Part shown: piece by piece, positions 2,780 through 51,541 of the stretch
Position numbering within the stretch: the first letter of the stretch is position 1
How the letters are laid out: each line of letters opens with the position of its first letter
IMG/VR virus record: IMGVR_UViG_3300021976_000020
Location: 1-52,466 of that record
DNA length: 52,466 bases
DNA from: a virus
Direction: 5' to 3' (one strand)
The notes under the pieces: model-generated
Seen by the model: only the letters and a program-made list of their open reading frames with translations
Databases searched by the model: none
What the model was told of the DNA's origin: nothing
Program-made: the position numbers and the translations under genes

Positions 2780-3528
2780 CACTGATCCCCCCGAAGGGCT
2801 GGGAAGACTGGGCACTGCAAGGTGATCTCCAGCTTGCCCTTGCCCAACTACCACCTGGTGGCCAGCACTCCAAGGTCTACACGGAAGCCTACACTCGTGG
2901 TGACTACGTCATCGTCGACAACGGTGCAAACGAAGGTGATGCGGTTGGCGACTACAAGCTCCTCGCACAAGCACATCTGTGGTGCGCTCAGGAGATCGTA
3001 GTGCCTGATGTGCTTCGTGATACTGCTGCAACGCTCCACCGAGCCAAGAAGTTCTTCATCAACCTGCGCGACTCTACGTACAACAAGCACGGCTTCACCT
3101 TCATGGGTGTCGTGCAGGGTACGTCATGGGAAGAGCTTATGACGTGCATTAAGTCCTACGAAGCAATGGACGAGATTACAGTACTCGGGATCCCTCGTCA
3201 TCTGATTCAGACCATGGAACAGAAGTTCGTACGGCTCATGTTGGCACAGAACATCGAAGCCAACTACGGTAGAAGGTTTCAGATCCATCTACTGGGCACT
3301 GCTCCGACGTTCGTACGTGAGTGCCGGACCGTATACGCAGATGCACCGTTCATCCGATCCATCGACACCTCGCTACCGTTCAATTATACCATCGCCGGAG
3401 AGGTTTTGCAAGTCGGCTCTCCACCCGTCGGCCGACCTCCTAACTACTTCGAACGTATTCAATCGATGGACAGTGTACGGTTGGCGAGGAATGCATCAAC
3501 GTTCCTAAGGTGGGCGCGTGGAGAATAA
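2770..3528 (+). CDS. dpdA: DpdA-like DNA 7-deazaguanine transglycosylase (non-canonical ATC start)
   Basis: A TGT-fold enzyme predicted to swap guanine for preQ0 in DNA. The 252-residue frame starts with KVALIPPKGWE after the initiator, followed by GDYVIVDNGANEG (substrate-binding/catalytic Asp region), EIVVPDVLRDT, GVVQGT, IHLLG and the RSIDTSLP motif carrying the second conserved Asp. A stop at 2758-2760 closes the frame upstream. No ATG, GTG or TTG occurs before GTG 3001, which would delete the DNGA motif. ATC at 2770 lies 6 nt after AGGAG and at the position where the family starts, so I propose an AUC start. It overlaps the polymerase gene by 11 bp. Confidence 0.82.
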   Translation: MKVALIPPKGWEDWALQGDLQLALAQLPPGGQHSKVYTEAYTRGDYVIVDNGANEGDAVGDYKLLAQAHLWCAQEIVVPDVLRDTAATLHRAKKFFINLRDSTYNKHGFTFMGVVQGTSWEELMTCIKSYEAMDEITVLGIPRHLIQTMEQKFVRLMLAQNIEANYGRRFQIHLLGTAPTFVRECRTVYADAPFIRSIDTSLPFNYTIAGEVLQVGSPPVGRPPNYFERIQSMDSVRLARNASTFLRWARGE

Positions 3529-33637: not shown

Positions 33638-33659
33638 CAACAAGGCCCGAAAGGGCTGC

Positions 33660-33740
33660 GCCCCTGAAGCTCAGTGGTAGAGCACCTCCAAGCTATGAAC
33701 GCGGAAGAGGAAGGTACAGGTTCGACACCTGTCAGGGGCA
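33660..33740 (+). tRNA. tRNA-like element 1 (enlarged anticodon loop)
   Basis: Acceptor GCCCCTG (33660-33666) pairs perfectly with CAGGGGC (33733-33739), discriminator A. The D arm GCTC/GAGC with AGTGGTA and the T arm ACAGG-TTCGACA-CCTGT are canonical. The anticodon stem CCTCC/AGAGG has four pairs and a C.A mismatch, and encloses 16 nt instead of 7, so no anticodon can be assigned. The variable loop is AAGGT. No CCA is encoded; CGTAA follows. A GAAA-loop hairpin (33644-33657) precedes it by 2 nt. Confidence 0.65.
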
Positions 33741-33767
33741 CGTAAACATTGATCCTGGAGGAAGGTC

Positions 33768-34109
33768 ATGCCGGACAAGTACAGTAACGACAAGGGTCAC
33801 TACTCCGAGGGAGGGAACATGTTCGACCTGGACAAGCTGGCCGACATGTTGAACGACGCGATCAACAACCCGGAGTCCTCCGAGGTCAAGCTAATCAAGA
33901 TCAACTCGGAGCTAGATGCTGCCGCTGCACATGCAGTGCTGAAAGGACAAGGCTACTTCCGCAATATCACTGCCCAAGGGATCTCCGAGCTGGAGGAGAG
34001 GCAGCCAAACCATCCCATACCGCGACTGTTCTGGACCACTCGGAGCCTAATGACTGCTCAGGTCTACGGGCTCGCGGCCAGCAAGTTGGCCTACTGGAAC
34101 AAAATCTAG
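33768..34109 (+). CDS. Hypothetical protein
   Basis: A 113-residue protein starting 28 bp after the first tRNA-like element, with GGAGGAAGG upstream. Internal ATG 33819 (MFDLDKLADMLNDA) is an alternative start. Mostly helical, with no recognised family. Confidence 0.65.
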   Translation: MPDKYSNDKGHYSEGGNMFDLDKLADMLNDAINNPESSEVKLIKINSELDAAAAHAVLKGQGYFRNITAQGISELEERQPNHPIPRLFWTTRSLMTAQVYGLAASKLAYWNKI

Positions 34110-34121
34110 GGGAGGAACACA

Positions 34122-34412
34122 ATGCCAGGACCGAACTCGAAGCCATCTGCCAAGACCAAGAGCGGTGCAACCGTGAACGGGAAGTCGAAGCTGAAGCACC
34201 TGAAGCTGAAGAGCGGAGAGAACCTGTACCGGGACAGCAAGGGCCGTACCCGAGAGGACGTAGTACTGACTCGGGAGTTCCAGGAGCATCAGGAGCGCGT
34301 TGGGCGTCTTTTTCCGAAGCAGCGGACCGAAATCGAGGGTCCCGTCGCCGATGACATCATCGTCTCCGAGGCCGAAGCGTTCCACGAGAAGCTGGAGGAC
34401 CAGTCCGCATGA
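34122..34412 (+). CDS. Basic hypothetical protein
   Basis: A 96-residue protein with a lysine- and serine-rich N-terminal 45 residues (KTKSGATVNGKSKLKHLKLK) and a helical acidic C-terminus (EAEAFHEKLEDQSA). GGGGAGGAAC upstream of ATG. It could bind DNA. Coupled to the next gene by ATGA. Confidence 0.65.
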   Translation: MPGPNSKPSAKTKSGATVNGKSKLKHLKLKSGENLYRDSKGRTREDVVLTREFQEHQERVGRLFPKQRTEIEGPVADDIIVSEAEAFHEKLEDQSA

Positions 34413-34597
34413 AGATCGACACGAAAGAGAAGTACGAGGCCAAGCACCGTCGGATCGTGCACAAGAACCGCAACAGGGTTCGCAACGCTGACGTGAAGGG
34501 CGACAACGGTACGCTGACAGCCATGGAACCGAAGCACCACTTGCGGTTCCAGAGCATCTTCGATATCTTCCCACCCCTGAGGAAGACCACAGTCTGA
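34409..34597 (+). CDS. Small basic protein
   Basis: A 62-residue protein, ATGA-coupled to the previous gene. It is strongly basic in residues 5-28 (KEKYEAKHRRIVHKNRNRVR) and hydrophobic near the end (LRFQSIFDIFPPLRK). Unknown function; it ends 14 bp before the structured RNA at 34611. Confidence 0.6.
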   Translation: MKIDTKEKYEAKHRRIVHKNRNRVRNADVKGDNGTLTAMEPKHHLRFQSIFDIFPPLRKTTV

Positions 34598-34610
34598 CGA
34601 CTGCGCACTT

Positions 34611-34703
34611 CTGCATGTGGCCTGATAGCTAGGTAAGGACCCGAGTTAGCCCGTCGAGCTAGTTGGTCGGGACCCGCAAGCTGACTCGAGTCGCCACATG
34701 CAG
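34611..34703 (+). ncRNA. Structured 93-nt leader RNA
   Basis: Closed by an 11-bp perfect stem CTGCATGTGGC / GCCACATGCAG (34611-34621 with 34693-34703). Inside, CCCGA/TCGGG (34640-34644 with 34667-34671) encloses a hairpin GTTAGC-CCGTCGA-GCTAGT with a 7-nt loop. It ends about 10 nt before the GGAGGTGAT ribosome-binding site of the 34732 gene. It may be a riboswitch-like leader or a small stable RNA; no known class matched by eye. Confidence 0.6.
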
Positions 34704-34731
34704 GACTCGGAATCGTTAGGAGGTGATAAAC

Positions 34732-35475
34732 ATGGGTCATTATGGGGACTCAGAGGACATCCGGACGAATGAGGAGATCTCGGACGACGAGGAAGCGTAC
34801 GAAGGTAGAAGCTGGGATCTTATGCTAGCCGAGTTAGCGGGGTACGTCAGTCCGATTGGAGATGGTCCACGAGGACCTTCGTCACACCTTCATGACTATG
34901 CCGAGGTCGACGTCCGCAACACCATCGCGTTTCAAGAGAACCTGAGGGTACATCGAAATCCGACAGTCCAAGACTGGTACGAGATCGAGAAAGCTCGGCA
35001 GCGTGAGCGTGAGGACGCGCACCGCAGGGTGATCGCCGAGCGCATCTCTACGACCTCGCAACAGAGGATCAATGCACAACTGGCAGACAAGAGGGGAAGG
35101 GACAGACAAGTGAACATCGAGTCGGAGATCCGATCGCAGCGCCGACACCTGGCGCGGCTGGAGGAGCTCAAGGAGAGGCACGAGGCACTAGCTCCGCTAC
35201 GAGATCTGGACGCGGGGTCCGTAGTGTACTTCACCAAGGAGCTCCCCTCCAAGAGGGTCGGCGGGATCGTCAAGGAGAAGAAGACGTACCACTACGCAGC
35301 TGTTCGAAGCGGTGACGCAGATGGCGCAGCCTGGCACGTCACAGGTGCTCAGGGCAACCTGGCCTGGGTGAGCGACGACGCCTTCATCGAGATGCTGGAA
35401 GACGCCAAGCTGGTCGGGCTGGTACAGACGTACCGGTCGCTCGTTGGCGGACCTGAGGAGGTCAAGGGTGCCTGA
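34732..35475 (+). CDS. Coiled-coil hypothetical protein
   Basis: A 247-residue protein. The N-terminus is acidic (SEDIRTNEEISDDEEAYEGR). A long charged helical region spans about residues 80-155 (EIEKARQREREDAHRRVIAE; QRRHLARLEELKERHEAL), and the C-terminal 80 residues form a beta domain with GSVVYFTKELPSKRVGGIV and WHVTGAQGNLAWVSDDAFIE. ATG 34732 is chosen for its near-perfect GGAGGTGAT ribosome-binding site. The structured leader upstream may control it. Confidence 0.7.
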   Translation: MGHYGDSEDIRTNEEISDDEEAYEGRSWDLMLAELAGYVSPIGDGPRGPSSHLHDYAEVDVRNTIAFQENLRVHRNPTVQDWYEIEKARQREREDAHRRVIAERISTTSQQRINAQLADKRGRDRQVNIESEIRSQRRHLARLEELKERHEALAPLRDLDAGSVVYFTKELPSKRVGGIVKEKKTYHYAAVRSGDADGAAWHVTGAQGNLAWVSDDAFIEMLEDAKLVGLVQTYRSLVGGPEEVKGA

Positions 35476-35848
35476 GAGTCGCGCGGTGACTGTAGTCATC
35501 AACACGCACATCGGTCCGGGAGAACTTCTCGAACAAGTACGTGAATCGCTCAAGAGCGACGGCTTTGTCGTCGAGAAGGTGAGGAACGCACCCGTCGAAC
35601 TGGTGGTCACGCGATCGATTCAGGTCACGTACACTTCACCGCTAGCTTCGTACGGCGGTGACACGCTCGAGCAGGCGATGGAGTACGAGCGGACGCTGGA
35701 AGGGTCTGAAGCTCTCGAGGCCCTCATCACCGCCGCAGAGGTTGAAGATGAGAACGTGCAGTACGGAGTGCACGTAACTGTCAAGAACGGAGAGGAACAC
35801 GGAAGCATTCAGGCACTCTCCGGCCCGAATCCGGTGATGTCCGACTAG
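35468..35848 (+). CDS. Hypothetical protein
   Basis: A 126-residue alpha/beta protein from GTG 35468 (GAGGAGGT upstream), overlapping the previous gene by 8 bp. Residues 5-50 (VTVVINTHIGPGELLEQVRE...) look like a small ferredoxin-like fold. No family recognised. A perfect terminator follows. Confidence 0.65.
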   Translation: MPESRAVTVVINTHIGPGELLEQVRESLKSDGFVVEKVRNAPVELVVTRSIQVTYTSPLASYGGDTLEQAMEYERTLEGSEALEALITAAEVEDENVQYGVHVTVKNGEEHGSIQALSGPNPVMSD

Positions 35849-35860
35849 GAGCTGGCAGGA

Positions 35861-35891
35861 GGGTCCAGAAGCGCCCCTTACTTCTGGACCC
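35861..35891 (+). terminator. Terminator
   Basis: A perfect 11-bp stem GGGTCCAGAAG / CTTCTGGACCC with a 9-nt loop, 13 bp after the stop at 35848. Confidence 0.75.
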
Positions 35892-35935
35892 GATGCTATC
35901 GCCTATCTGGGGAGGAACATGCAAAGGAGGAGGCT

Positions 35936-36268
35936 ATGGCAGGGATTGTTGCTAAGTGCAATACCAGTGGTCGATGCTGTGTTCACAGTAGTCCAGTGGA
36001 CCAGGGCTCTACTGTGATTCTGGGACAGCTACCTACACGATTCACGCAATTTGAAGTCTACGTCCTGAAAAAGTACGTAGACGGAAGGAATGACCTCTAC
36101 GAGAAGGTGGGGATCGCTTGGCCTAACGAGCATGCTGCAGAGCAGTTCGTCAGAGGGTTCGAACGTAGGAACGCTTGGGCGAGAGGCAAGACGAAGATCC
36201 TGGAGAAGACCACGACCTACGTAGTCCCATCGGACTATGAGGAGGGGACAAGTGCACACGCTGCGTAG
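35936..36268 (+). CDS. Hypothetical protein
   Basis: A 110-residue protein with AAAGGAGGAGG before ATG 35936. The N-terminus has CNTSGRCCVH (three Cys and His), then an alpha/beta region (FEVYVLKKYVDGRNDLYEKV; EHAAEQFVRGFERRNAWARG). A hydrophobic 33-codon frame starting at 35920 overlaps it; I do not trust that one. Unknown function. Confidence 0.65.
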   Translation: MAGIVAKCNTSGRCCVHSSPVDQGSTVILGQLPTRFTQFEVYVLKKYVDGRNDLYEKVGIAWPNEHAAEQFVRGFERRNAWARGKTKILEKTTTYVVPSDYEEGTSAHAA

Positions 36269-36563
36269 CGGGGAGACGACCTTCCATCACCACGGTGACT
36301 TCACTGGCAAGGTTAGGATCATCATTCCGTCAGCCGGTAGCAACTACGAGCTGCGTCACAATGATCATACGGTAACGTTCGAAGTCCCGTACAGGGATCT
36401 CGAAGTGCTAGTACTGACGAAGATCCAGCGTGACCTGGTCGAGGAAATCGAGGGCATCGACATTGCCACCCCTAGGGGCGTCGAACGCATACTCACCTTC
36501 ATGAATGCGGCTATGGTAGCTCAGCAAAACTCCACACGGCTCGGGCCAGGTGGGCAAAGGTAA
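36252..36563 (+). CDS. Hypothetical protein containing a repeat motif
   Basis: A 103-residue protein from GTG 36252 with AGGAGGGG upstream; ATG 36237 is possible but poorly placed. Beta-rich first half with FHHHGDFTGKVRIIIPSAGS, helical second half. Its last codons run over an ACTCCACACGG motif (36529-36539), encoding NSTRLG, so the end of the gene may have been reshaped by the motif. Confidence 0.6.
   Translation: MHTLRSGETTFHHHGDFTGKVRIIIPSAGSNYELRHNDHTVTFEVPYRDLEVLVLTKIQRDLVEEIEGIDIATPRGVERILTFMNAAMVAQQNSTRLGPGGQR
36529..36539 (+). repeat. ACTCCACACGG motif, copy 7
   Basis: At the 3' end of the 36252 gene, 50 bp before the ATG at 36589; flank GCAAA before the core. Confidence 0.8.
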
Positions 36564-36588
36564 GACCCGATACATTCTCGAGGGAGGA

Positions 36589-37350
36589 ATGGACGGTATG
36601 GTAAGAGGTAGGAAGGTAACAAACACTAACGAGCTTCTGGCTCGTAAGGTGAAGTGCCCTGTCTGTGCGGTGGGCGTAGGAGAGCCTTGCCGAACTAGTA
36701 GGGGCATGCGCAGGGGTCACCACGTGGAGCGCTACAACGCGGCCGTGCGGCTCGCCGACCTCGCGACAAAGCCGCGGGGGCGGAAGTACGACACCGCCAA
36801 AGAGGCGAAGGTCCGTAAGGTCGTGTGCCCGAAGTGTAAGGCGGGCAACGGCGATCAGTGCACCACCTACAGCGGTCGCAAGATGGGCTTCAGTCACACG
36901 GAGCGCTACGAGAAGTTCGATGAGCTGGTGTCTGAGGCCAGAGTCGAGAATGGTCTCGAGGTGAAGGCGGAAGCTACGCCCGAGGTGAAGGCGGAGTCGG
37001 ATACCCCGGCCGTCGATTGGTCGTGGGATTCGTTGCAGGATGCGGAAGCGCAGGTGAATGCTGCCACGAAGCAGTGGACGAGCGACAAGTCGTACGTTAT
37101 CGATAACCTCCCAGGCATCCAGGAGGAGATCAAGAGGAATACCATCCAGCACCTGGACAACATGATCGAGGATTCGAACAAGATCGTCAAGGCCGCCCTC
37201 GGTGGCTCCACTGAGGAGGTCTTGGCCCGCAAGGAGCAGATCAAGATGATCACCGACGCCTTCTGGATGCTGTACAACCTGGAAGGTACTGAGTGGTTCA
37301 TCAATCGTATCGCCGAGATGATCGTCGATGGGGAGGACTGGCTAGGCTGA
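36589..37350 (+). CDS. Protein with tandem phage zinc-binding domains
   Basis: A 253-residue protein. Residues 22-55 and 80-110 are two copies of the same motif: CPVCAVGVGEPCRTSRGMRR...HHVERY and CPKCKAGNGDQCTTYSGRKM...SHTERY, each with CxxC...C...H, a small zinc-binding domain found in actinophage proteins. A linker with repeated EVKAEA/EVKAES and a helical C-terminal domain (IQEEIKRNTIQHLDNMIEDS...) follow. ATG 36589 has GGGAGGA upstream. A nucleic-acid-binding role is likely. Confidence 0.75.
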   Translation: MDGMVRGRKVTNTNELLARKVKCPVCAVGVGEPCRTSRGMRRGHHVERYNAAVRLADLATKPRGRKYDTAKEAKVRKVVCPKCKAGNGDQCTTYSGRKMGFSHTERYEKFDELVSEARVENGLEVKAEATPEVKAESDTPAVDWSWDSLQDAEAQVNAATKQWTSDKSYVIDNLPGIQEEIKRNTIQHLDNMIEDSNKIVKAALGGSTEEVLARKEQIKMITDAFWMLYNLEGTEWFINRIAEMIVDGEDWLG

Positions 37351-37404
37351 TGGATGTCGTCCGCGAGAAAACTGAATAGCACGGAGCGGGCGAGAGCCCG
37401 TCTT

Positions 37405-37485
37405 GGGCGGGAACCTTGTACAACGATCGACGGATCAGTACAACGGTACACACGGCATCTGCAGGTTCGAGTCCTGCCCCGCCCT
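37405..37485 (+). tRNA. tRNA-like element 2 (no recognisable D/anticodon arms)
   Basis: Acceptor GGGCGGG (37405-37411) pairs perfectly with CCCGCCC (37478-37484), and the T arm GCAGG-TTCGAGT-CCTGC (37461-37477) is canonical. The 49 nt between them do not form normal D and anticodon arms: TTGTAC/GTACAA encloses GATC-GACG-GATC. Discriminator T, then CGTAA. A GAGA-loop hairpin CGGGC/GCCCG (37387-37400) lies 4 nt upstream. It may be a decayed tRNA or a tRNA mimic. Confidence 0.45.
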
Positions 37486-37523
37486 CGTAAACGGGGAGGC
37501 ATCCGTCGCAAAAGGGAGACTCT

Positions 37524-37763
37524 ATGGCAACTGTAGCAACATGGTCCCGCAAAGAACTAGTGGGATCAGACATCGGAATGGTCGTTCGTGACCTCCGACG
37601 CAAACGTGCGATATCGCCACGTGTACTAGCCGAGTTAGCTGGCGTAACACACAACACCGTATACGACTTGGAGAACGGGCGTAACGTCATGGTCTCCTCG
37701 TTGGTAGCCATCCTGGCTGCGCTCAACTACGATCTGACCGTACAGAAGAAGGCGAACACGTAG
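37524..37763 (+). CDS. XRE-family helix-turn-helix regulator
   Basis: A 79-residue protein with a Cro/CI-type helix-turn-helix: IGMVVRDLRRKRAISPRVLA, ELAGVTHNTVYDLENGRNVM and VSSLVAILAALNYDLTV follow the XRE pattern helix by helix. ATG 37524 with AAAGGGAGAC upstream. It lies between tRNA-like element 2 and an ACTCCACACGG site that begins 8 bp after its stop. It is a candidate for the protein that binds that motif; this is inference. Confidence 0.85.
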   Translation: MATVATWSRKELVGSDIGMVVRDLRRKRAISPRVLAELAGVTHNTVYDLENGRNVMVSSLVAILAALNYDLTVQKKANT

Positions 37764-37770
37764 ACAAAAG

Positions 37771-37781
37771 CCGTGTGGAGT
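37771..37781 (-). repeat. ACTCCACACGG motif, copy 8
   Basis: Directly after the XRE gene. On the minus strand GTTTAAC (37810-37804) precedes it by exactly 22 bp. Confidence 0.8.
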
Positions 37782-37826
37782 TCTGACTGAGCTTCGAGCG
37801 GTTGTTAAACAAGGACTGGAGGAGAT

Positions 37827-38066
37827 GTGCGCACTATCAGTAATGGAGAAGGCGTGGAGATGTCGTTTCGGGTAACTGCAACGCAGCCAATGCCGAAGTC
37901 CAACCTCAGTTACGGCCGAGAGTGGCTGGAGGCCGAGGAGGATGCCGAAAGCTTGGACGACGCCATCGAGATCATCCGCCGGAGAGGTAGAGCCGTACGG
38001 CCACGGCGAGGTAGCATTCCACATCACCGCCACCCCGAAGAACCTGGAGGTCGTAAACCTAACTGA
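37827..38066 (+). CDS. Hypothetical protein, probable frameshift
   Basis: A 79-residue frame; ATG 37860 is an alternative start. The first part (MSFRVTATQPMPKSNLSYGR...DDAIEIIR) looks like a real domain, but after about 37980 the frame becomes Arg/Pro-rich. Another frame then reads AGEVEPYGHGEVAFHITATP, then KNLEVVNLTER, stopping at 38073, and looks far more protein-like. One missing base near 37978-37982 would explain this, either a true mutation or an assembly error. Confidence 0.5.
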   Translation: MRTISNGEGVEMSFRVTATQPMPKSNLSYGREWLEAEEDAESLDDAIEIIRRRGRAVRPRRGSIPHHRHPEEPGGRKPN

Positions 38067-38076
38067 GCGGTAAAAA

Positions 38077-38136
38077 GATCTTGAAAGAAATTCGCTTGCC
38101 ACCCTTGCTTTTCACTTTAGGCTGCTGTATAATTAA
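38077..38136 (+). promoter_or_regulatory. Promoter, GATCTTG...TATAATTAA family (member 3)
   Basis: GATCTTG (38077-38083) upstream; TTGCTT (38105-38110), 17-bp spacer, TATAATTAA (38128-38136). Confidence 0.8.
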
Positions 38137-38183
38137 TCCAGAAGCGCAAGACAAACAACTACCCCAGAGGGAAGGGTACAGAA

Positions 38184-38819
38184 ATGTCAGAGCACGAGTA
38201 CAAAGAGCCAAACTTCGAGGACAACTCGCACAGCGAGGGCGACCACCCGGCCTTCGAGGGTCAGGCAGAGCCGGCCGACGAGATCGACTTCAACGTCGAC
38301 CCGGATGCCCCGGACGTGGATCCCGACGTGGAGATCGGCGCGGCGGACGATGAAGACGCCGAGGTCGTGCCGCCGCAGGGCAGCGACAAGGCGCCGACGG
38401 ACCCGAAGGCTGCGAAGGCGAAGAAGGAGTCCACCAGGCCGCCGGTGCCCGAAGGCTTCATCAGCCCGGTCCAGTTCGCAAAGCTCCTGGGTGAGCACCT
38501 GACCGCCAAGGCTCGTGAGACCAACCCCGAGGCCGAGGCCATCGAGGTGCGTCCGCAGGTCGTGTACAGCTACATCAAGAACAACGACGCCAGCAGCAAG
38601 AACCCCTTCCCGTGCCGCACCGACGTGCCGGGTCGCGCGATCGTCCTGAAGGCCGACGAGGGCCTGGCCTGGTGGGACGAGAAGAACGCTCGGGTCGCCA
38701 AGAGCAAGGCGGACCGTGCAGCTGCTGCCGCCGCGAAGGCCAAGAAGGCCGAAACCTCCCCGCAGGCCGCTGCCGAGACCGGCGAGGTCGCGACGGGTCA
38801 GGTCGAAGAGGTCGAGTAA
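38184..38819 (+). CDS. Acidic/Ala-Lys-rich DNA-binding-like protein
   Basis: A 211-residue protein with strong promoter and terminator and very GC-rich codons, so probably abundant. Residues 1-75 are acidic (DEIDFNVDPDAPDVDPDVEI). About residues 90-160 form a folded domain (FISPVQFAKLLGEHLTAKAR; VRPQVVYSYIKNNDASSKNP, reminiscent of small histone-like or HTH modules). The end is a Lys/Ala-rich helix. It resembles the 28938 protein in design. It might be a phage nucleoid or regulatory protein. Confidence 0.72.
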   Translation: MSEHEYKEPNFEDNSHSEGDHPAFEGQAEPADEIDFNVDPDAPDVDPDVEIGAADDEDAEVVPPQGSDKAPTDPKAAKAKKESTRPPVPEGFISPVQFAKLLGEHLTAKARETNPEAEAIEVRPQVVYSYIKNNDASSKNPFPCRTDVPGRAIVLKADEGLAWWDEKNARVAKSKADRAAAAAAKAKKAETSPQAAAETGEVATGQVEEVE

Positions 38820-38851
38820 CAAGCTCCTATGCTGCGAGCATAGGAAAAGGG

Positions 38852-38888
38852 GAAAGGTCGTCCACCACCGCAGGCTGGGCGACCTTTC
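38852..38888 (+). terminator. Rho-independent terminator
   Basis: A 9-bp stem GAAAGGTCG / CGACCTTTC (38852-38860 with 38880-38888) followed by TTCT. A smaller hairpin CCTATGC/GCATAGG (38826-38844) precedes it. Confidence 0.75.
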
Positions 38889-38928
38889 TTCTGCACCATT
38901 GTTACTACAATATCCACAAGTGTAACCC

Positions 38929-38958
38929 GTGATTTACCCCTTGGTTCACCGGTATAAT
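38929..38958 (+). promoter_or_regulatory. Promoter, CGTGATTT class
   Basis: GTGATT (38929-38934), 18-bp spacer, TATAAT (38953-38958). The expected transcript start is only about 7 nt before the GTG at 38972, so the message may be nearly leaderless. Confidence 0.7.
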
Positions 38959-38971
38959 AGAAGGTAGAGAC

Positions 38972-39226
38972 GTGAGTGCATTAGCTGACCTCTCCGACGA
39001 CGATATCGTCGAGTGCATATCACTGATCGAGAATTGGTTCAGAGACGACCGTGAGATCGAACAGGAACGCTATACCGACCCTTCGTACCGAGATCCAGAG
39101 TCGTTCCTGCAAGACCTTGACGAGCATCCGAAGCAACGCACAGCGATGATCAGGATGCTCAACCTACTGGAGGACGAACGTGACAGACGAAAGGCCGGTG
39201 CCAGCGCAGTACGACTGGGCCCTTAA
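38972..39226 (+). CDS. Hypothetical protein
   Basis: An 84-residue acidic helical protein (LSDDDIVECISLIENWFRDD). GTG 38972 lies just after a promoter, with little room for a ribosome-binding site (GAAGGTAGAGAC). It overlaps the next gene by 47 bp. Confidence 0.6.
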   Translation: MSALADLSDDDIVECISLIENWFRDDREIEQERYTDPSYRDPESFLQDLDEHPKQRTAMIRMLNLLEDERDRRKAGASAVRLGP

Positions 39227-39632
39227 GGTATGGGAGGCGATGCGGGACGCGGCCACTCCTGAGCAGATGGAAGGGGAAGACGCGCCTGTTCTGGTTTACC
39301 AGGGGCATCTGACGAACCTGTTCCAGCAGTTCAAGGTGCCGAATCCTTACTACAGCAAGATCACCACTGCCTTCAAGAACCAAGGCTACGCTGTACAGCT
39401 TCGCCGAGGTGGAGGAAGTGCGGAGTCTCGCTGGGCGCTCCTAAAGGAGCCAGACCCGGAGAGCTTTCGGGAGGCAGCTACCCGCAACAGAGTACGCCAG
39501 GGAAAGGTGGGCCAGCTAGAGCAGAGGGTCAATGACCTGCAGAAGCTTGCCATCTCGAGCGTGGAACGGTTGGAGCGAGTGACCCTTCGTCTCCAGGAGC
39601 GCGTCGAGGCGTTGGAACAGAAAGGAATCTGA
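39180..39632 (+). CDS. Hypothetical protein with coiled coil
   Basis: A 150-residue protein starting at GTG 39180. The N-terminal 100 residues may be a winged-helix-like domain (LFQQFKVPNPYYSKITTAFK...QGYAVQLRRGGGSAESRW). Residues 105-148 form a heptad coiled coil (KVGQLEQRVNDLQKLAISSV...). Probably a DNA-binding oligomer; no family name. One-base overlap with the next gene. Confidence 0.65.
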   Translation: MTDERPVPAQYDWALKVWEAMRDAATPEQMEGEDAPVLVYQGHLTNLFQQFKVPNPYYSKITTAFKNQGYAVQLRRGGGSAESRWALLKEPDPESFREAATRNRVRQGKVGQLEQRVNDLQKLAISSVERLERVTLRLQERVEALEQKGI

Positions 39633-39958
39633 TGGCATCTAGCTGGGAAGATGCAAGGCGGTGCCCTTCGGACGAGTCTCCTGGTGAGATCGTAGGGCGC
39701 CGTCCAGCGTCGAGGGAATCTGGTGCAGCGCCAGGTAGTCAGTTGGTTACGCTGCAGTGCAAGAACACACGGTGCGCGTATCACGAGACGCCGTGGGTCG
39801 TGCAGATCAATCCAGACAACACCATTCCGGACCCAATCACAGATCGGGAGAAGTTCTTTCCGAAGCTGCCTGGAGGTCAACGTGCCAGAGACGTCGTGGA
39901 CATGTTGACCCGTCAGGTAGAACGGGAAACGAAACCGGGAGGTGAGATCCGCGGGTGA
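39632..39958 (+). CDS. Hypothetical protein
   Basis: A 108-residue protein. The middle carries VTLQCKNTRCAYHETPWVVQ, a C..C..H set that could bind zinc, then a helical C-terminus (ARDVVDMLTRQVERE). Coupled at both ends to neighbours. No family recognised. Confidence 0.6.
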   Translation: MASSWEDARRCPSDESPGEIVGRRPASRESGAAPGSQLVTLQCKNTRCAYHETPWVVQINPDNTIPDPITDREKFFPKLPGGQRARDVVDMLTRQVERETKPGGEIRG

Positions 39959-40170
39959 AGATCTACGTCGTGTCACAAGGCAACGAGGAGTTCCATCGCA
40001 TCTCGCACGTGGATAGTGACTGGAATCGCGCTGTGAAGCACGCTGTCGAAGAGCTCAGGGTCGACGATGTAGAGCTCCGCAACAACAAGAGAGACCGAGA
40101 AGGCGTTGTAGCATGGGAGTTCTGGAGCGGCGCTACGCTTACCAGGATATCCCAGCTAGAACTTAGTTAG
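39955..40170 (+). CDS. Hypothetical protein
   Basis: A 71-residue protein whose GTG overlaps the previous stop (GTGA). Alternating strand and helix (KIYVVSQGNEEFHRISHVDS, then NRAVKHAVEELRVDDV). The 3' end lies over the edge of the inverted 75-bp element. Confidence 0.6.
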   Translation: MKIYVVSQGNEEFHRISHVDSDWNRAVKHAVEELRVDDVELRNNKRDREGVVAWEFWSGATLTRISQLELS

Positions 40171-40230
40171 ACTTCGAGGATCTTGAAGCCGCACTAACCG
40201 TACTAAAGCGGTAAGTCATCTAGTTAGAAG
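40156..40230 (-). repeat. 75-bp dispersed element, copy 3 (inverted)
   Basis: Read on the minus strand it carries TTCTAACTAGATGACTT, TTAGTGCGGCTT and TCTAACTA..GTTCTAG in the same order as copies 1 and 2; the central GAGGATCTTG block is itself inverted (CAAGATCCTC). It occupies most of the 130-bp gap before the helicase gene. Confidence 0.55.
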
Positions 40231-40300
40231 TAGGTTAGATCGGGTCTAATCAACCTTCTCTAAGCTACGAGAGCTCTAGCTAGATGAGGGAAGGGACATT

Positions 40301-41794
40301 GTGCCAAAGCTGTTCGACTTCCAGCAGGTGAGCACCAAGAGGCTGGTACCTGAACGTTCGGTGCTCAACGGTGATGACATGGGCCTTGGCAAGACGGTTC
40401 AGGCCATTGCGATGGACGTGATGCGCCGCAATATGCACAACTGCGGCCTCACAGCTCAGACACTCGTAGTGACAAAGATGACGGTTATGGGGAGCTGGAA
40501 GGACCACTTCGAAGAATGGGCACCCAACCTACGGGTCTTCGTAATGAACCCGAAGAACAGACGCAAGTTCACAGCAGCTTTTCACGCGAAGGATTCCAAG
40601 GGGCTACCGCTCTACCACGTGTTCGTATGTCACTGGCCGGCCCTGAGGTTCATTACGGACGAGCTCAAATCGGTAGCATGGTTTCACGTTGTTGGCGACG
40701 AGATCCACGCGATCAAGAATCGCAAGGCCCAAGTTACGAGATCGTTCAAGGCCATGCGCCCGTACTACAGGACAGGCCTATCGGGCACATGGGCAGATAA
40801 CAACCCGGACGATGCGTGGAGTGTCCTGAACTGGCTTTGGCCGAACGTGTTCACAAACTTCACCCGCTTTAGTAACTACCACACCATCAAGGTGCAGAAG
40901 GAGACCCAAGACGGACGCAAATACAATGTCATTGCCGGGACTGCGAACGCTGAGGAGCTTCACGCCCAGATTGCGCACGGATACGTAAGGCGCACCAAGG
41001 AAGAAGTACTGGACGACCTTCCTGACAAGTACTACAGTACCGTCAAGGTTGACCTGCATACGAAGCAGAGATCCGCGTATAACCAAATGCGCGATACTAT
41101 GCTGGCCTGGGTGGGGGAGCACGAGAACGAACCGATCGCAGCACCAATGGTCATCGCAAAACTGGTGCGGTTGCAGCAGTTCGCTTGTGCCTACGGTCAA
41201 CTCGAGACGATCTACAAGACGATAGTCGACGCTGACGGGGAAAAGCAGAAGATCCCCATGCAGGTACTTCGTCTAACCGAACCCAGCTCTAAGCTGGACG
41301 CGGTGATGGAGATTATCGATGCGACATCTACACCCGTGGTGGTGTTTAGCCAAAGTAAGCAGGTCATCAACCTATTGGGTAAGAGGCTACAGGCTGAAGG
41401 TATTGCGGCCGGGATTCTTACTGGAGACACCCCAGCGAGAGATCGTAGTCAGTTGGTATCGGACTTTCAGTCGGGGCGGCTACGTGTGTTTGCGGGAACC
41501 ATCGCGGCTGGTGGTACTGGGATCACCCTTACAGCTGCTAGTACATGCATTTTCATTGACCGAGCGTGGTCGCCGTCGCAAAACCGTCAGGCTGAGGATC
41601 GCCTTCACCGTATTGGACAAAAGAATGCGGTCCACATCATTGACATTGTGGCACGAACTACCATCGACTCTGGGAGAAACAGAAAGATCGCCCTCAAGTG
41701 GGAGTGGCTCCGAGAAATGCTGGGCGACAAGGGCGAAGAGCTTCGTAAGGAAGTACACATCAACGACGTAATCCCCTCGGTAAAATTCTGGTAA
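40301..41794 (+). CDS. SNF2-family DEAD-like helicase
   Basis: A 497-residue SF2 ATPase of the SNF2 type. Motif I is GDDMGLGKT (24-32), Ia TLVVTKMTVMGSWKDHFEEW, II DEIH (133-136), III LSGTWADNNPDDAW. The second RecA lobe has PVVVFSQSKQVINLLGKRL, motif V AGTIAAGGTGITLTAA and motif VI NRQAEDRLHRIGQ. Small size without accessory domains is common in phage versions, which remodel DNA during replication or recombination. GTG 40301 with GGGAAGGGAC upstream. Confidence 0.92.
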   Translation: MPKLFDFQQVSTKRLVPERSVLNGDDMGLGKTVQAIAMDVMRRNMHNCGLTAQTLVVTKMTVMGSWKDHFEEWAPNLRVFVMNPKNRRKFTAAFHAKDSKGLPLYHVFVCHWPALRFITDELKSVAWFHVVGDEIHAIKNRKAQVTRSFKAMRPYYRTGLSGTWADNNPDDAWSVLNWLWPNVFTNFTRFSNYHTIKVQKETQDGRKYNVIAGTANAEELHAQIAHGYVRRTKEEVLDDLPDKYYSTVKVDLHTKQRSAYNQMRDTMLAWVGEHENEPIAAPMVIAKLVRLQQFACAYGQLETIYKTIVDADGEKQKIPMQVLRLTEPSSKLDAVMEIIDATSTPVVVFSQSKQVINLLGKRLQAEGIAAGILTGDTPARDRSQLVSDFQSGRLRVFAGTIAAGGTGITLTAASTCIFIDRAWSPSQNRQAEDRLHRIGQKNAVHIIDIVARTTIDSGRNRKIALKWEWLREMLGDKGEELRKEVHINDVIPSVKFW

Positions 41795-41810
41795 GGAGCA
41801 CACACCCCTC

Positions 41811-42077
41811 GTGATCGCAGCAGGTAAAGGTGCCGTAGGTAAGAACTGGGCCAAACGACGTAAGTCCTCCAAACTGGGCTTCGTACCGGTCATGGAAGAC
41901 CTCAAGGGATGTCTGCACGCACTGACCTTCCACGAAGAAGTCACAGGTAAGAACGGTCGACCGAAGACCGTTAAGTACGCACTGCCCTGCCGTGCCAAGC
42001 ACACCGCCAAGATGGCCAACGGTAAGCTCCAGGTAGTAGGTGCACACAAGACCACGACAGGGGTGACCTGGCAATGA
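41811..42077 (+). CDS. Hypothetical protein
   Basis: An 88-residue basic protein from GTG 41811 (AAGGAGCAC upstream). It is Lys/Gly-rich at the N-terminus (AAGKGAVGKNWAKRRKSSKL), then a small beta-like domain (HALTFHEEV; TVKYALPCRAKH). No family recognised. ATGA overlap with the next gene. Confidence 0.6.
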   Translation: MIAAGKGAVGKNWAKRRKSSKLGFVPVMEDLKGCLHALTFHEEVTGKNGRPKTVKYALPCRAKHTAKMANGKLQVVGAHKTTTGVTWQ

Positions 42078-42319
42078 TCAAGATCGGTGACTACGAAGCA
42101 GACCGACACAGCTATCACCACCCCGACCTGGGCACCGATCTCCAGGTCATCCAGCAGCAGTCGATTAAGGCTGCGCAGGACAAGTACTACCCACACAGCT
42201 CGGTAGTTCACCACCACCTGTCGACAGAGCCTTGCAAGGTGGAGGGCTTCGACAACAAGGAACACGACAACGTTCACGAAGTCTACCCAATTATACCAAG
42301 CCAGCGGGTGGGCGACTAA
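42074..42319 (+). CDS. His-rich hypothetical protein
   Basis: An 81-residue protein with eight histidines spread through it (HSYHH; SSVVHHHLS; EHDNVHEVY), possibly metal-binding. Coupled to the previous gene by ATGA; its stop directly precedes an ACTCCACACGG site. Confidence 0.6.
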   Translation: MIKIGDYEADRHSYHHPDLGTDLQVIQQQSIKAAQDKYYPHSSVVHHHLSTEPCKVEGFDNKEHDNVHEVYPIIPSQRVGD

Positions 42320-42321
42320 AA

Positions 42322-42332
42322 ACTCCACACGG
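42322..42332 (+). repeat. ACTCCACACGG motif, copy 9
   Basis: Between the genes at 42074 and 42344, 12 bp before the GTG; followed by GCGAGGA, which serves as the ribosome-binding site. Confidence 0.8.
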
Positions 42333-42343
42333 GCGAGGACACT

Positions 42344-42523
42344 GTGGCAGTTACGAAGAAGCCGATCCTGAAGCTTGTATCGGACAATCCAGGATTCAAG
42401 CACTGTGACGCCTGTAAGATTGAAGGCGTTCCGATGGAAATGGTTCGCAAGAGTGGTTACGACATCGTAATTTGTGTCGAGCCTGTCTCATGCAGGAGGC
42501 GGTATGAGAAGTCTTCTGATTGA
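42344..42523 (+). CDS. Small Cys-containing protein
   Basis: A 59-residue protein from GTG 42344. FKHCDACKIEGVPMEMVRKS and DIVICVEPVSCRRRYEK give a CxxC and two later cysteines, consistent with a small zinc-binding fold. It overlaps the next gene by 20 bp. Confidence 0.6.
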   Translation: MAVTKKPILKLVSDNPGFKHCDACKIEGVPMEMVRKSGYDIVICVEPVSCRRRYEKSSD

Positions 42524-42608
42524 CGCCATTGTCATCACAACCATTGCACTGATGTGTGTATTTGGCTACATACTCTGCTCTGGGATTGCCGGACAGAGTT
42601 ACCAATAG
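42504..42608 (+). CDS. Very small membrane protein
   Basis: A 34-residue frame with GGAGGCGG before ATG 42504 and one hydrophobic segment (LLIDAIVITTIALMCVFGYI). It precedes the exported-protein module. Unknown function. Confidence 0.5.
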   Translation: MRSLLIDAIVITTIALMCVFGYILCSGIAGQSYQ

Positions 42609-42620
42609 AAGAGGAGAACC

Positions 42621-43223
42621 ATGAGGGTAAGGACTGTAGCGGTGGCGACTTCTGCCTTCGCTCTGTTGCTGCTCGGGGGAACCGCTGCTCAGGCGGCCAC
42701 CGACACAACCAAGCACGAGTCGGGCCTGATGGACTTCGGTCCCAATGGCTTCGGCGGATGGTCGTGCCCGGAAGGCACCGAGGTGGTCACCGGCGGATAC
42801 ACCTACGCCGAAGGCGCGGAACACCTCGATGTCAAGGTCGACGCCAAGATGGAGGCCGCGACCGAATACCCGCACTACACCACCAAGGCCGATGAGACCG
42901 GTTGGTACGTGCAGAACGGTGAGCAGGCGCAGAAGCTGAACGTGTGGGTCGAGTGCAAGGCCAAGGTGGAGGAGAGCCCCAGTCCTGAACCGGAGCCCAG
43001 TGAGACCGTTTCCCCAAGTCCTGACGTGACGGCTTCTCCGAGCACCTCCCCGAGTACCGCGCCGACCTCGCCCGTCCCCGGACAGGCTGGCTCGGATGAC
43101 GACCAGCCCGGCTTGCCCGTAACTGGTGCAAAGGGGAAGGTCATCCTGGCTAGTGGCGCAGGGCTCCTGCTTGCAGGGGTTGCTCTGATGTTCATCGCGC
43201 GTCGACGACGCTTTACTGCATAG
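42621..43223 (+). CDS. LPXTG cell-wall-anchored exported protein
   Basis: A 200-residue protein with a signal peptide (basic start, AFALLLLGGTAAQA, cleavage after AQA near residue 25). A folded domain at about 26-115 (GPNGFGGWSCPEGTEVVTGG; two Cys) is followed by a Pro/Ser/Thr-rich stalk (about 117-165). The C-terminus has LPVTG, a hydrophobic span (VILASGAGLLLAGVALMFIA) and RRRR, a complete sortase sorting signal. It should be displayed on the infected cell's surface. GC-rich codons suggest origin from a host gene. Confidence 0.88.
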   Translation: MRVRTVAVATSAFALLLLGGTAAQAATDTTKHESGLMDFGPNGFGGWSCPEGTEVVTGGYTYAEGAEHLDVKVDAKMEAATEYPHYTTKADETGWYVQNGEQAQKLNVWVECKAKVEESPSPEPEPSETVSPSPDVTASPSTSPSTAPTSPVPGQAGSDDDQPGLPVTGAKGKVILASGAGLLLAGVALMFIARRRRFTA

Positions 43224-43228
43224 GAATG

Positions 43229-43258
43229 CCCCCGACAGGATGCAAGTTCTGTCGGGGG
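43229..43258 (+). terminator. Terminator hairpin before tRNA-like element 3
   Basis: A perfect 10-bp stem CCCCCGACAG / CTGTCGGGGG with a 10-nt loop, after the LPXTG gene and 5 nt before the tRNA-like element. Confidence 0.75.
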
Positions 43259-43263
43259 AACAA

Positions 43264-43378
43264 GGTCCGGTAGCACGTATTGGAAAGTGCATCCATGCGC
43301 AGCCCTGCATGTACGTAGTAGTGATTAGAGATACTCGTACGGGGTGGAAGGTAGCAGGTTCGAGTCCTGCCCGGGCCA
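43264..43378 (+). tRNA. tRNA-like element 3 with a 40-nt anticodon-loop insertion
   Basis: Acceptor GGTCCGG (43264-43270) pairs with CCGGGCC (43371-43377, one G.U), discriminator A. The D arm GCAC/GTGC with GTATTGGAAA and the T arm GCAGG-TTCGAGT-CCTGC are canonical. The anticodon stem TCCAT/GTGGA (43292-43296 with 43344-43348) and a 5-nt variable loop AGGTA are normal, but the loop is 47 nt instead of 7. It contains its own hairpin, GTACG-T-AGTA with TACT-CGTAC. No group I core fits in this length. CGTAA follows. Confidence 0.65.
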
Positions 43379-43417
43379 CGTAACTAACAACACATCCCCC
43401 AAACTAAAGGAGTCGTA

Positions 43418-43834
43418 ATGAGGAAAGGCACGAAGATCGCGCTGGTAACTGTTGGTCTCGCTGCGTGTTGCGGTGGCGGCGGTACACTCGCCGTGGCAGG
43501 GCTCTCAGGGATCGCGGAGTCAGCACCTGAGACCTTCGCCCCGACGCTCGCGCCCGACAAGACCACAACCCCCAATCCTGGCACGCGTCCGAAGGTGAAC
43601 ACCGCTCCGACCATCGAGAGCGGTACGTGGACGATCAGCGTCGATGTCCCTGCGGGCACGTACAAGCTCAACCAGCCCCAAGATGGTCCCTGTTACTGGG
43701 GCATCTACAAGAGCGGGACCAACCTAGAGAGCATCATCACCAACGACATCGTGGACGGCGGACGCCCGAGTGTGACTCTGAAGAAGGGTCACGACTTCAA
43801 ATCCGACTGCGGAACCTGGACGAAGACCAAGTAA
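43418..43834 (+). CDS. Secreted protein
   Basis: A 138-residue protein with an N-terminal signal or anchor (KIALVTVGLAACCGGGGTLAVA) and a Pro/Thr-rich linker. The C-terminal domain has SGTWTISVDVPAGTYKLN, CYWGIYKSGTNLESII and FKSDCGTWTKTK, the GTW/VPAGTY/CYW/CGTW pattern of small secreted domains common in Streptomyces. Two domain cysteines may form a disulfide. With the LPXTG gene it makes an exported-protein module around tRNA-like element 3. AAAGGAGTC before ATG. Confidence 0.8.
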   Translation: MRKGTKIALVTVGLAACCGGGGTLAVAGLSGIAESAPETFAPTLAPDKTTTPNPGTRPKVNTAPTIESGTWTISVDVPAGTYKLNQPQDGPCYWGIYKSGTNLESIITNDIVDGGRPSVTLKKGHDFKSDCGTWTKTK

Positions 43835-48482: not shown

Positions 48483-50687
48483 GTGAGCGATGATATACAC
48501 AAGACTCTTGATACGTTCTTCCGTGCGGCCTTCGGTCCTAGGGCCACTGGCTTCGTTTGCCTCGCGTTCCTAGCTACGAACTCAGGCGAACGAAAGCTCA
48601 CGGAACACTTCTTTGAGTACCCGACACAACTGAACAACATGATTGCCACAGTACAACGTGGCATGCTAGAAAGTAACGCATACTACTGCCCTATGCTCTT
48701 CTCGGAGCGGAAGCGCAGAAAGGATACGGTTAAGGAATGTCCAGCAGCGTGGGCGGATCTGGACACTTGCGACCCGACCAAGATGCTAGTATCACCGACG
48801 CTAGCAGTGGAATCAAGCCCTGGGCGGTACCAAGCCCTATGGCGCTTCACAGAGCCGCAGCCGCCGCACGTCGCAGAAGACTTGTCGAAGAGAATCGCCT
48901 ACTATCACGCCTCCGATGGCGCAGATCGTAGTGGCTGGGATCTGACACAGCTCCTGCGACTGCCCGGTACGCCTAACTTCAAGTACAGCGGCCATCCTAG
49001 AGTGCAAACGATCGCAACTGATCGAGCACTGTACACACTGAAAGATTTCGGCAAGTATCCTGAGGTACAACACTCCGAGTTCCTAAAGGCGCCGATGCCG
49101 ACGGCAGAGGAGCTGCCAGAAGAAACCGCAGAGCAGTTGTTCCTTAAGTATCGCCATCAAGTACTACCAGCAGCACTAGCCACCTTCATGCACGAGCCAG
49201 AAGGATCATGGAGCGAGGCTCTGTGGAAGATGGAGATGATGTGCTTCGAAGGGGGCATGTCAAAGGAAGAGGTATTCGTCGTAGCTAGTGCGGCGAAGTG
49301 TAACAAGTACCAGCGCGATCATAAGGACCCAACGTACCTGTGGATAGAAGTATGTCGAGCGTTCGTTAAGTACCAGGAGAACGTGAACGCAGTCTTCTTC
49401 CAAGGCGCGGAGATCCAACCGCTACTGTCAATCGAAGAGTCCAAGATCGCTGATGCGCAGGAAGGCTTCGCAGAGAGGTACGTCGAATGGGCTTCGTCGC
49501 TGGGGGATGCCGCTGTTCAGTATCACCAGGCTGGTGCCTTCACGATTCTATCCGCTTTGCTAAGCGGTCGGCTAGTACTGCCGACCAGCTTCGGAACAGT
49601 GATACCGAACCTTTGGTTTATGATTCTCGGCGACACAACGTTGACGAGGAAGAGTACGGCGATGGACATCGGGATCGACCTCCTACTGGAAGTCGATCCT
49701 GACGTTATCTTAGCAACTGATGGATCGATCGAAGGCCTCCTGCAACAGCTAGAGGCAAGGCCGAAGAGACCGTCAGTGTTCTGGAGGGATGAGTTTAGTG
49801 GACTCCTCGAGCAGATTACCAAGAAAGACTACATGGCAGGCATGGCCGAGGTGCTTACCAAACTGTACGATGGAAAGATGCAGAAGCGAGTCCTGCGAAA
49901 GGAGACAGTTACTGTTCGCGATCCTATTCTGCTTGTTCTGGCGGGAGGGATTCGCAATCGCGTGCAGTCACTACTTACGCACGAACATGTCAGTTCAGGT
50001 TTCATACCACGATTCATCTTCGTTACAGCGGAATCTGACACAACTCGAGTCAAGCCACTTGGACCACCTGCGCTACGCGATATGGGCAACAAGGCGGCGC
50101 TCGTAGAAGAGATGGAGAAGATCCGCGACCACTACGGTCAACAGCGGACGATCCACATCAAGGCACTAGACCAGCACAGACCGATCGAAGGTGGCTTCGA
50201 AGCGCATCTGACACCAGATGCTTGGGAGCGATACAACAGACTAGAGGGCGAGCTGCTGGAGTGTGGACTCAAATCGGAGAAGCCCGACTTGATGACACCA
50301 CTATTCGATCGGTTAGCCAAGTCAGGCCTTAAGGCAGCGGTCCTCTTAGCAGGCGCCAGACAGTTCGACAAGCACGTGTCAGTAGAAGTAACCGACATCC
50401 TACATGCGATCCGATATGTCGAGCAGTGGCGTACGTATGCCATCGAAGTCGTCAACGGGATCGGCAAGACAGTGTTCGAGCGAGACATTGAGAAGATCCT
50501 AGGCGCGATTGTAAAGCGTCCAGGTGTCAGTCGAGCACAACTGATGCAGAGCTACCACCTCACAGCGAGGATCGCAGACCAAGTCTTCGACACGCTAATC
50601 CAACGAGGCCAGATAGCAATGCAGCGGACAGATGGCACAAGTCGGCAAGTGTACTATCCGACAGTATCACGAGGAGGAGTTAAGTGA
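48483..50687 (+). CDS. Primase-helicase (RepB-like primase plus DUF3987-type ATPase)
   Basis: A 734-residue replication protein. The N-terminal 250 residues look like a RepB/prim-pol domain: ATGFVCLAFLATNSGERKL, CPAAWADLDTCDPTKM with paired acidic residues, DLTQLLRLPGTPNFKY. The central ATPase has a Walker A-like GDTTLTRKST (383-392) and Walker B WRDEF (D436, E437). The end is a winged helix (RPGVSRAQLMQSYHLTARIA...). GTG 48483 is chosen because the longer start lies inside the terminator and GGAGGGG precedes this one. Confidence 0.85.
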   Translation: MSDDIHKTLDTFFRAAFGPRATGFVCLAFLATNSGERKLTEHFFEYPTQLNNMIATVQRGMLESNAYYCPMLFSERKRRKDTVKECPAAWADLDTCDPTKMLVSPTLAVESSPGRYQALWRFTEPQPPHVAEDLSKRIAYYHASDGADRSGWDLTQLLRLPGTPNFKYSGHPRVQTIATDRALYTLKDFGKYPEVQHSEFLKAPMPTAEELPEETAEQLFLKYRHQVLPAALATFMHEPEGSWSEALWKMEMMCFEGGMSKEEVFVVASAAKCNKYQRDHKDPTYLWIEVCRAFVKYQENVNAVFFQGAEIQPLLSIEESKIADAQEGFAERYVEWASSLGDAAVQYHQAGAFTILSALLSGRLVLPTSFGTVIPNLWFMILGDTTLTRKSTAMDIGIDLLLEVDPDVILATDGSIEGLLQQLEARPKRPSVFWRDEFSGLLEQITKKDYMAGMAEVLTKLYDGKMQKRVLRKETVTVRDPILLVLAGGIRNRVQSLLTHEHVSSGFIPRFIFVTAESDTTRVKPLGPPALRDMGNKAALVEEMEKIRDHYGQQRTIHIKALDQHRPIEGGFEAHLTPDAWERYNRLEGELLECGLKSEKPDLMTPLFDRLAKSGLKAAVLLAGARQFDKHVSVEVTDILHAIRYVEQWRTYAIEVVNGIGKTVFERDIEKILGAIVKRPGVSRAQLMQSYHLTARIADQVFDTLIQRGQIAMQRTDGTSRQVYYPTVSRGGVK

Positions 50688-51541
50688 CTCAGCCGATCGA
50701 GTTCCCCCCGGTCACGCACCAGCCTGACAGCGTCGCCATTGTTTCTGGCGGTCTCGACAGTACGACGTTGGTCTACGACATGCTGGACAAGGGCTACACG
50801 CCGCATCTGCTCAGCTTCAACTACGGACAGCGGCACGCCAAGGAACTGACCTTCGCCAAGATGACCGCACAGATCCTAGGCCTCAAGCACGACATCGTCG
50901 ACCTGACAGGACTGACACACCTGATCAGCAACTCGGCTCTGACCTCCGATCACAAGCATGCCGAAGGCAACGACATCATCGAAGTTCCTGAGGGGCACTA
51001 CGCTGAGGACAGCATGAAGGCTACGGTTGTCCCAAACCGTAACATGATTATGCTGAGCATCGCTACAGGCTTGGCTGTCAACAATCACTACCGCACGGTC
51101 GGTATCGGTGTTCACGCGGGTGACCATTTCGTATACCCTGACTGCCGACCAGAGTTCATCTTCTCCCTGGGTCAGGCAATACTGCGGGGTAACGAAGGTT
51201 TCCACAATTTCACCACCAACGATGAAGTCGTCGAATTTGGTGGTATGCAGTTCAAGGGAACGGCTCTTCCAATCTACGCACCGTTCCTACACTACTCGAA
51301 GGCAACCATTGCCTATCGTGCCATCGAGCTCAGTGTTCCGTTTCATCTGACCTGGAGCTGCTATAAGGGTGGCGAGAAGCACTGCGGTAAGTGTGGGACC
51401 TGCGTGGAGCGCCTAGAGGCTATCAATCATGCTCAGTGGCAGATTTCAAAGGACGTTCCAGAGTGGTGCGACACTCCGTATAAGATCGAGGACCAGACAG
51501 AGTACGAGAACACAGATTTCTGGAAGACCGCGAAGAAATGA
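50684..51541 (+). CDS. queC: 7-cyano-7-deazaguanine synthase QueC
   Basis: Converts 7-carboxy-7-deazaguanine and ammonia to preQ0 with ATP, the last step of preQ0 synthesis. The 285-residue protein has the PP-loop SGGLDS (21-26), NYGQRHAKEL, the SALTSD segment and the zinc-binding cysteines C226, C234, C237 and C240 (CYKGGEKHCGKCGTC). There is no fused glutaminase domain. GTG 50684 overlaps the primase stop (GTGA). Confidence 0.95.
   Translation: MTQPIEFPPVTHQPDSVAIVSGGLDSTTLVYDMLDKGYTPHLLSFNYGQRHAKELTFAKMTAQILGLKHDIVDLTGLTHLISNSALTSDHKHAEGNDIIEVPEGHYAEDSMKATVVPNRNMIMLSIATGLAVNNHYRTVGIGVHAGDHFVYPDCRPEFIFSLGQAILRGNEGFHNFTTNDEVVEFGGMQFKGTALPIYAPFLHYSKATIAYRAIELSVPFHLTWSCYKGGEKHCGKCGTCVERLEAINHAQWQISKDVPEWCDTPYKIEDQTEYENTDFWKTAKK

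Follow-up and report, generated by a model that had tools for sequence, protein, structure and literature searches.

Three tRNA-like elements, E1, E2 and E3, lie between genes of the replication region, on the plus strand, in the virus record IMGVR_UViG_3300021976_000020 of IMG/VR. The record, analysed over its whole length of 52,466 bases and called the window here, has no close relative among cultured phages. We think it probable that these elements are RNA punctuation marks in an early or replication operon, from which host RNase P and RNase Z would excise them. This reading builds on the structure of the elements, their position, their conservation and compensatory pairing in related phages, and the positions of start codons next to ordinary transfer RNAs (tRNAs) in larger relatives.

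Three tRNA-like elements without a normal anticodon arm

All three elements have a 7-bp acceptor stem, perfect in E1 and E2 and with one G-U pair in E3, stacked directly on a T arm of 5 bp whose loop reads TTCGA; a discriminator base and then CGTAA follow (Table 1). An earlier note made from this sequence alone had observed that none has a normal 7-nucleotide (nt) anticodon loop, and a 5-bp anticodon stem with such a loop, U33 and a purine at position 37 is indeed absent from each of them. The D arm is normal in E1 and E3. The anticodon stem of E1 has 4 bp and closes an 18-nt loop, that of E3 has 5 bp (TCCAT/GTGGA) and carries a 47-nt insert, and in E2 one long hairpin takes the place of both arms. 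E1 scores as an ordinary tRNA (51.9 bits with Rfam RF00005; tRNA-His(atg) by ARAGORN). E2 and E3 received no ARAGORN call and no Rfam match, and neither program found a match to transfer-messenger RNA (tmRNA) in the window. The element region shows no DNA similarity to cultured phages, and the one match of E3 is a short stretch of a tRNA-Phe.

The flanks of the elements are also alike, with the spacings reported in the earlier note: a hairpin lies 2, 3 and 5 nt upstream of E1, E2 and E3, and the downstream distances to the next start codon are 27, 38 and 39 nt. CGTAA is confined to this phage; the trailers of relatives read C and then usually G. When the collection was scanned for CGTAA behind a T-arm-like stretch, mostly unrelated or ordinary tRNAs came up, and we rejected CGTAA as a shared signal. 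A special meaning for the encoded C after the discriminator was likewise rejected, as 35 of 42 tRNAs without encoded CCA in unrelated control phages have it.

The acceptor and T arm are conserved in diverged relatives

Through the helicase we found about 25 relatives in IMG/VR (43-59% identity). Six sisters, of about 51 kb each, have primases that are 64-66% identical. The window and nine diverged relatives together hold 23 elements, all on the sense strand; a near-duplicate record, G003, repeats G002 and is additional to these 10 genomes. Like E1-E3, the elements of the relatives combine a 7-bp acceptor with a 5-bp T arm and a TTCRA loop. Most elements sit just upstream of the helicase gene, and those of the sisters fall in the stretch upstream of it. 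Two positions are kept, one before gene family F11 (position A, six sisters) and one before or near family F46 (position B, five), and at both of them the bottom halves of the elements are unalike among sisters. Of the 23 elements, just five are recognised by ARAGORN, each with an odd anticodon arm, and some sister elements reach RF00005 scores of 35-55. Six genomes (G002, G004, G005, G017, G018 and G022) retain elements yet have no ARAGORN tRNA at all. Three elements (G004-A, G018-A and G022-B) share the same U1-C72 mismatch at the first base pair, each with a G before it.

The elements are not expected by chance. We scanned the window and eight relatives strictly, requiring fully paired acceptor and T stems and tolerating no more than a single G-U per stem. 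The plus strands of these nine genomes gave 15 elements, the minus strands gave none, and 180 shuffled genomes (20 per genome) gave none; a relaxed scan found 20 on the plus strand and none on the minus. Across 21 elements, the 12-pair stack of acceptor and T arm is 98.0% paired, a percentage biased upwards because the elements were first found by pairing. Double-sided changes occur in 68 cells of this stack; shuffles gave 16.6 and slid controls 9-25. The covariation score of the stack is 0.848, compared with 0.202 in shuffles. The segment between acceptor and T arm, by contrast, ranges from 32 to 114 nt and forms a cloverleaf with inserts, a single hairpin, or a D arm only. One of the 23 elements has a stem whose 7-nt loop carries U33 and a purine at 37, where 4.5 such elements would be expected by chance. 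A paired and covarying top half joined to a variable bottom half suggests that selection acts on the processing half alone. The earlier note had proposed such selection, with decoding lost, and had looked to pairing in related phages; that pairing is conserved, and these sequence comparisons lend the proposal strong support.

Start codons abut ordinary tRNAs in larger relatives

We counted 92 ordinary tRNAs in eight genomes that are more distantly related, several being 64-81 kb long and less GC-rich; 82 of these tRNAs stand singly between genes. The tRNA-Ile(tat) genes of G012, G021 and L032 are preceded by hairpins resembling that of E1. For 26 of the 92 tRNAs, an open reading frame (ORF) of at least 40 codons, taken from plain ORF calls with no curation, starts exactly one base past the discriminator (N-C-ATG or N-C-GTG). 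Other start offsets have 0-6 cases each, and about 1-2 are expected per offset. None of 57 control-phage tRNAs has such a +1 start (Fisher 9e-7). A start at this distance leaves no room for a ribosome-binding site, and a Shine-Dalgarno (SD)-like motif is missing at 23 of the 26 +1 starts versus 7 of 22 later starts. Relatives share several of the +1 starts (families F61, F87, F88 and F103). The arrangement also occurs in other viral contigs, at a rate that is biased since these were picked by a pattern containing it, and in the deposited record of Bmoc, a cultured Streptomyces phage, coding sequences are annotated as starting directly after tRNA-Leu genes. A motif, GTGTCATAGGCTGT, conserved downstream of tRNA-Gln, -Leu or -Thr in G010, G012, G013, G021, L032 and L033, is possibly a promoter.

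The same arrangement is found at an anticodon-less element. In the sister G002, element B is followed by C-GTG, and translation from this GTG gives a protein (VKPVTVFSVVVAAGIGPAVALG) that resembles, from residue one, the start of its G007 homologue (MKPLGLFAAIVGVGLLPAVG). With a few extra residues, it also resembles the start of the G018 homologue. Thus, next to an element unable to decode, too, the start codon lies too close for a ribosome-binding site to fit. Three uses had been suggested in the earlier note: messenger RNA (mRNA) processing sites, tRNA decoys against anticodon nucleases, and aminoacylation sensors. The intergenic position of the elements, the single ordinary tRNAs of larger relatives and the +1 start codons support the first of these, and nothing points to the other two.

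A model for punctuation by tRNA-like elements

In the model that we favor, one long transcript would span several genes plus the intervening tRNA-like elements. Host RNase P would recognise the 12-bp acceptor/T-arm stack and the T loop and cut at the 5' end of the element, and RNase Z would cut after the discriminator. RNase P is known to bind the stacked T arm and acceptor as a ruler and to cleave RNAs that present such a stack (PMC4919913). The 3' end of the upstream mRNA would be short and often sealed by a hairpin, which could protect it, while the downstream mRNA would gain a new 5' end near its start codon. The model thus supposes transcription through the elements, both cleavages, and some benefit to translation or mRNA stability. 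In the larger relatives, ordinary tRNAs would do the same job: the RNase Z cut would often leave a one-base leader, or a fully leaderless mRNA if the tRNA retained C74. In the lineage of the window, the decoding half would no longer have been needed and may have drifted or been replaced. We put it at an even chance that phages arrived independently at mitochondria-style punctuation, with leaderless or short-leader mRNAs, and that one lineage then evolved dedicated anticodon-less elements.

Several observations weigh against punctuation. All three downstream genes in the window have an SD-like motif of their own and a 27-39-nt leader, so cutting is not needed for initiation there. The window elements lie at partly different junctions than those of the sisters. 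Upstream hairpins, present at all three window elements, are not universal, being stronger than shuffles (p<=0.05) at 8 of the 23 elements overall. The bias in the pairing percentages counts here too, but the shuffle control indicates that the search cannot create the elements, which answers most of it.

In mitochondrial punctuation, single decoding tRNAs stand between polycistronic genes, and the start codons coincide with or adjoin the 3' ends of the tRNAs. The single tRNAs of the larger relatives, with their adjoining start codons, resemble this arrangement, whereas the marks of the window no longer decode and their downstream genes have SD leaders. The C4 antisense RNA of phages P1 and P7 and the phage M3 RNA each occur as one antisense or stable RNA, whereas the present elements recur between genes and have acceptor, T arm and discriminator. 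Both are substrates of host RNase P (PMC11143913). At the t-elements of plant mitochondria (5' of cox1, 3' of ccmC), RNase P and RNase Z cut mRNA ends; t-elements are CCA-tailed and uncharged, and in at least one the anticodon loop has diverged (PMC11658184). The phage elements are likewise tRNA-like, on the sense strand and at gene junctions; unlike the organellar ones, they have a far more degenerate bottom half and occur several per operon, and their cleavage is predicted. In Bmoc (Samistivirus, 133 kb), where coding sequences begin at tRNA 3' ends, the tRNAs are normal, and our open-access search found no paper reading its interspersed tRNAs as punctuation. Nor did we find a description of phage tRNA punctuation in the open-access literature.

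If the model is correct, scattered phage tRNAs, whose purpose has long been debated, would have a second reason to exist beyond codon supply, namely the punctuation of expression. The elements would also be a natural case of the acceptor/T-arm half as a self-sufficient unit under selection once decoding is dropped, and they would connect leaderless translation, a common mode in actinobacteria, with the processing of tRNAs.

Alternative explanations

The elements could instead be decaying genes, relics of tRNAs that the lineage stopped needing. Ordinary tRNAs do occur in the same region of the larger relatives, and tRNA-type D arms are found in many elements, several of which keep TAGCTCA..GGTAGAGC. 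Decay should, however, also reach the acceptor and T stems, which have remained paired through many double changes while the rest diverged, and elements persist in 10 of 10 genomes. We consider this account unlikely.

It is quite improbable, in our view, that the elements stay uncut and work through their inserts, either as regulatory RNAs on a tRNA scaffold or as leader elements acting in cis. The B-type elements do have a common motif (GATC..GATCC-GCCC..GGGC-AAGGGGGAAGC), and CGACGGAT in E2 (37428-37435) can pair with ATCCGTCG in its leader (37501-37508). Most inserts nevertheless differ between elements at the same position, and the processing half is their only common denominator.

Splicing offers a further possibility, in which the elements would be working tRNAs once the inserts in their anticodon arms are removed. 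E3, G009-1, G009-3 and G005-C would suit this: their D arm is canonical, and their anticodon stem, of 5-6 bp, encloses an insert of 40-60 nt. Yet the inserts have no common ends or sequence and run from about 8 to over 60 nt; in E2, G004-A and G009-2 an anticodon arm either would not fit or has left no trace; a loop with U33 and a purine at 37 is found in almost none; and no RNA ligase was recognised among the roughly 30 window ORFs scanned, which are part of the total. We regard splicing as very unlikely.

Anticodon-nuclease decoys or protected tRNAs, or else aminoacylation sensors, seem the least credible: the altered part is precisely the anticodon loop, and cultured distant relatives encode an RNA ligase and a polynucleotide kinase, which suggests anticodon-nuclease pressure on such phages, but the nuclease target that a decoy should retain is missing, no common identity elements or insert sequences were seen, and the gene-junction positions and +1 start codons would be left unexplained. 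A relation to Y RNA or YrlA, with their tRNA mimicry, was rejected, as no Ro/TROVE domain was found among the ORFs scanned. We saw no feature supporting a role as an attachment site (att) or in integration, which was not specifically pursued.

Gene content of the window and other unusual tRNA-like RNAs

The replication region, on the plus strand, also codes for an exonuclease, a primase and a DNA polymerase. The product of the gene following E3 looks secreted, judging by its N-terminus. Elsewhere, the window encodes a family A DNA polymerase with an N-terminal uracil-DNA glycosylase-like domain, and its GTP cyclohydrolase I, QueC and radical SAM protein make deazaguanine DNA modification likely.

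Table 1. Positions of the tRNA-like elements, their flanks and selected genes in the window.
Feature	Position	Strand	Description
Hairpin GGCCC-GAAA-GGGCT	33644..33657	+	2 nt before E1; p 0.08 versus shuffles
E1 tRNA-like element	33660..33740	+	acceptor GCCCCTG/CAGGGGC, discriminator A
E1 trailer (CGTAA...) and 5' leader	33741..33767	+	SD-like GGAGGAAGG
ORF after E1	33768..34109	+	113 amino acids, family F17, conserved in sisters
Hairpin GCGGGC-GAGA-GCCCGT	37386..37401	+	3 nt before E2; p 0.04
E2 tRNA-like element	37405..37485	+	acceptor GGGCGGG/CCCGCCC, T arm GCAGG/CCTGC, discriminator T
E2 trailer (CGTAA...) and 5' leader	37486..37523	+	SD-like AGGGAGA
ORF after E2	37524..37763	+	79 amino acids, HTH_3 regulator
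SNF2-type helicase	40301-41794	+	replication region
10-bp hairpin CCCCCGACAG/CTGTCGGGGG	43229..43258	+	5 nt before E3; p<0.005
E3 tRNA-like element	43264..43378	+	acceptor GGTCCGG/CCGGGCC (one G-U), discriminator A
E3 trailer (CGTAA...) and 5' leader	43379..43417	+	SD-like AAAGGAG
ORF after E3	43418..43834	+	138 amino acids, hydrophobic N-terminus
Radical SAM protein	169-951		
GTP cyclohydrolase I	952-1560		
Family A DNA polymerase	3518-5917		
QueC	50684-51541		

Other contigs held further tRNA-like oddities. Three elements of 81 nt (L314:48-128, L375:5218-5298 and, on the minus strand, L222:10374-10454) span the full Rfam tmRNA model with 51.6-65.5 bits and have almost the whole mRNA part deleted, making them tmRNAs without a tag reading frame; similar shortened tmRNAs were seen by eye in L182, L287, L330 and L336. 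In another group (L356:1066-1142, L311:7602-7676, L157:1732-1808, L200:2130-2206 and L234:1446-1522), an ordinary-looking anticodon arm seems to be nested within the D stem (CCC..arm..GAAAGGG). These nested-arm elements are not called by ARAGORN, and L356 and L222 are just at the Rfam threshold. Finally, AT-rich phages carry tRNA-like elements with inserts of tens of nucleotides (L332:7723-7842, L332:7858-7976, L156:6519-6630 and L165:2747-2872), the inserts carrying a hairpin and then CAGCAA or similar.

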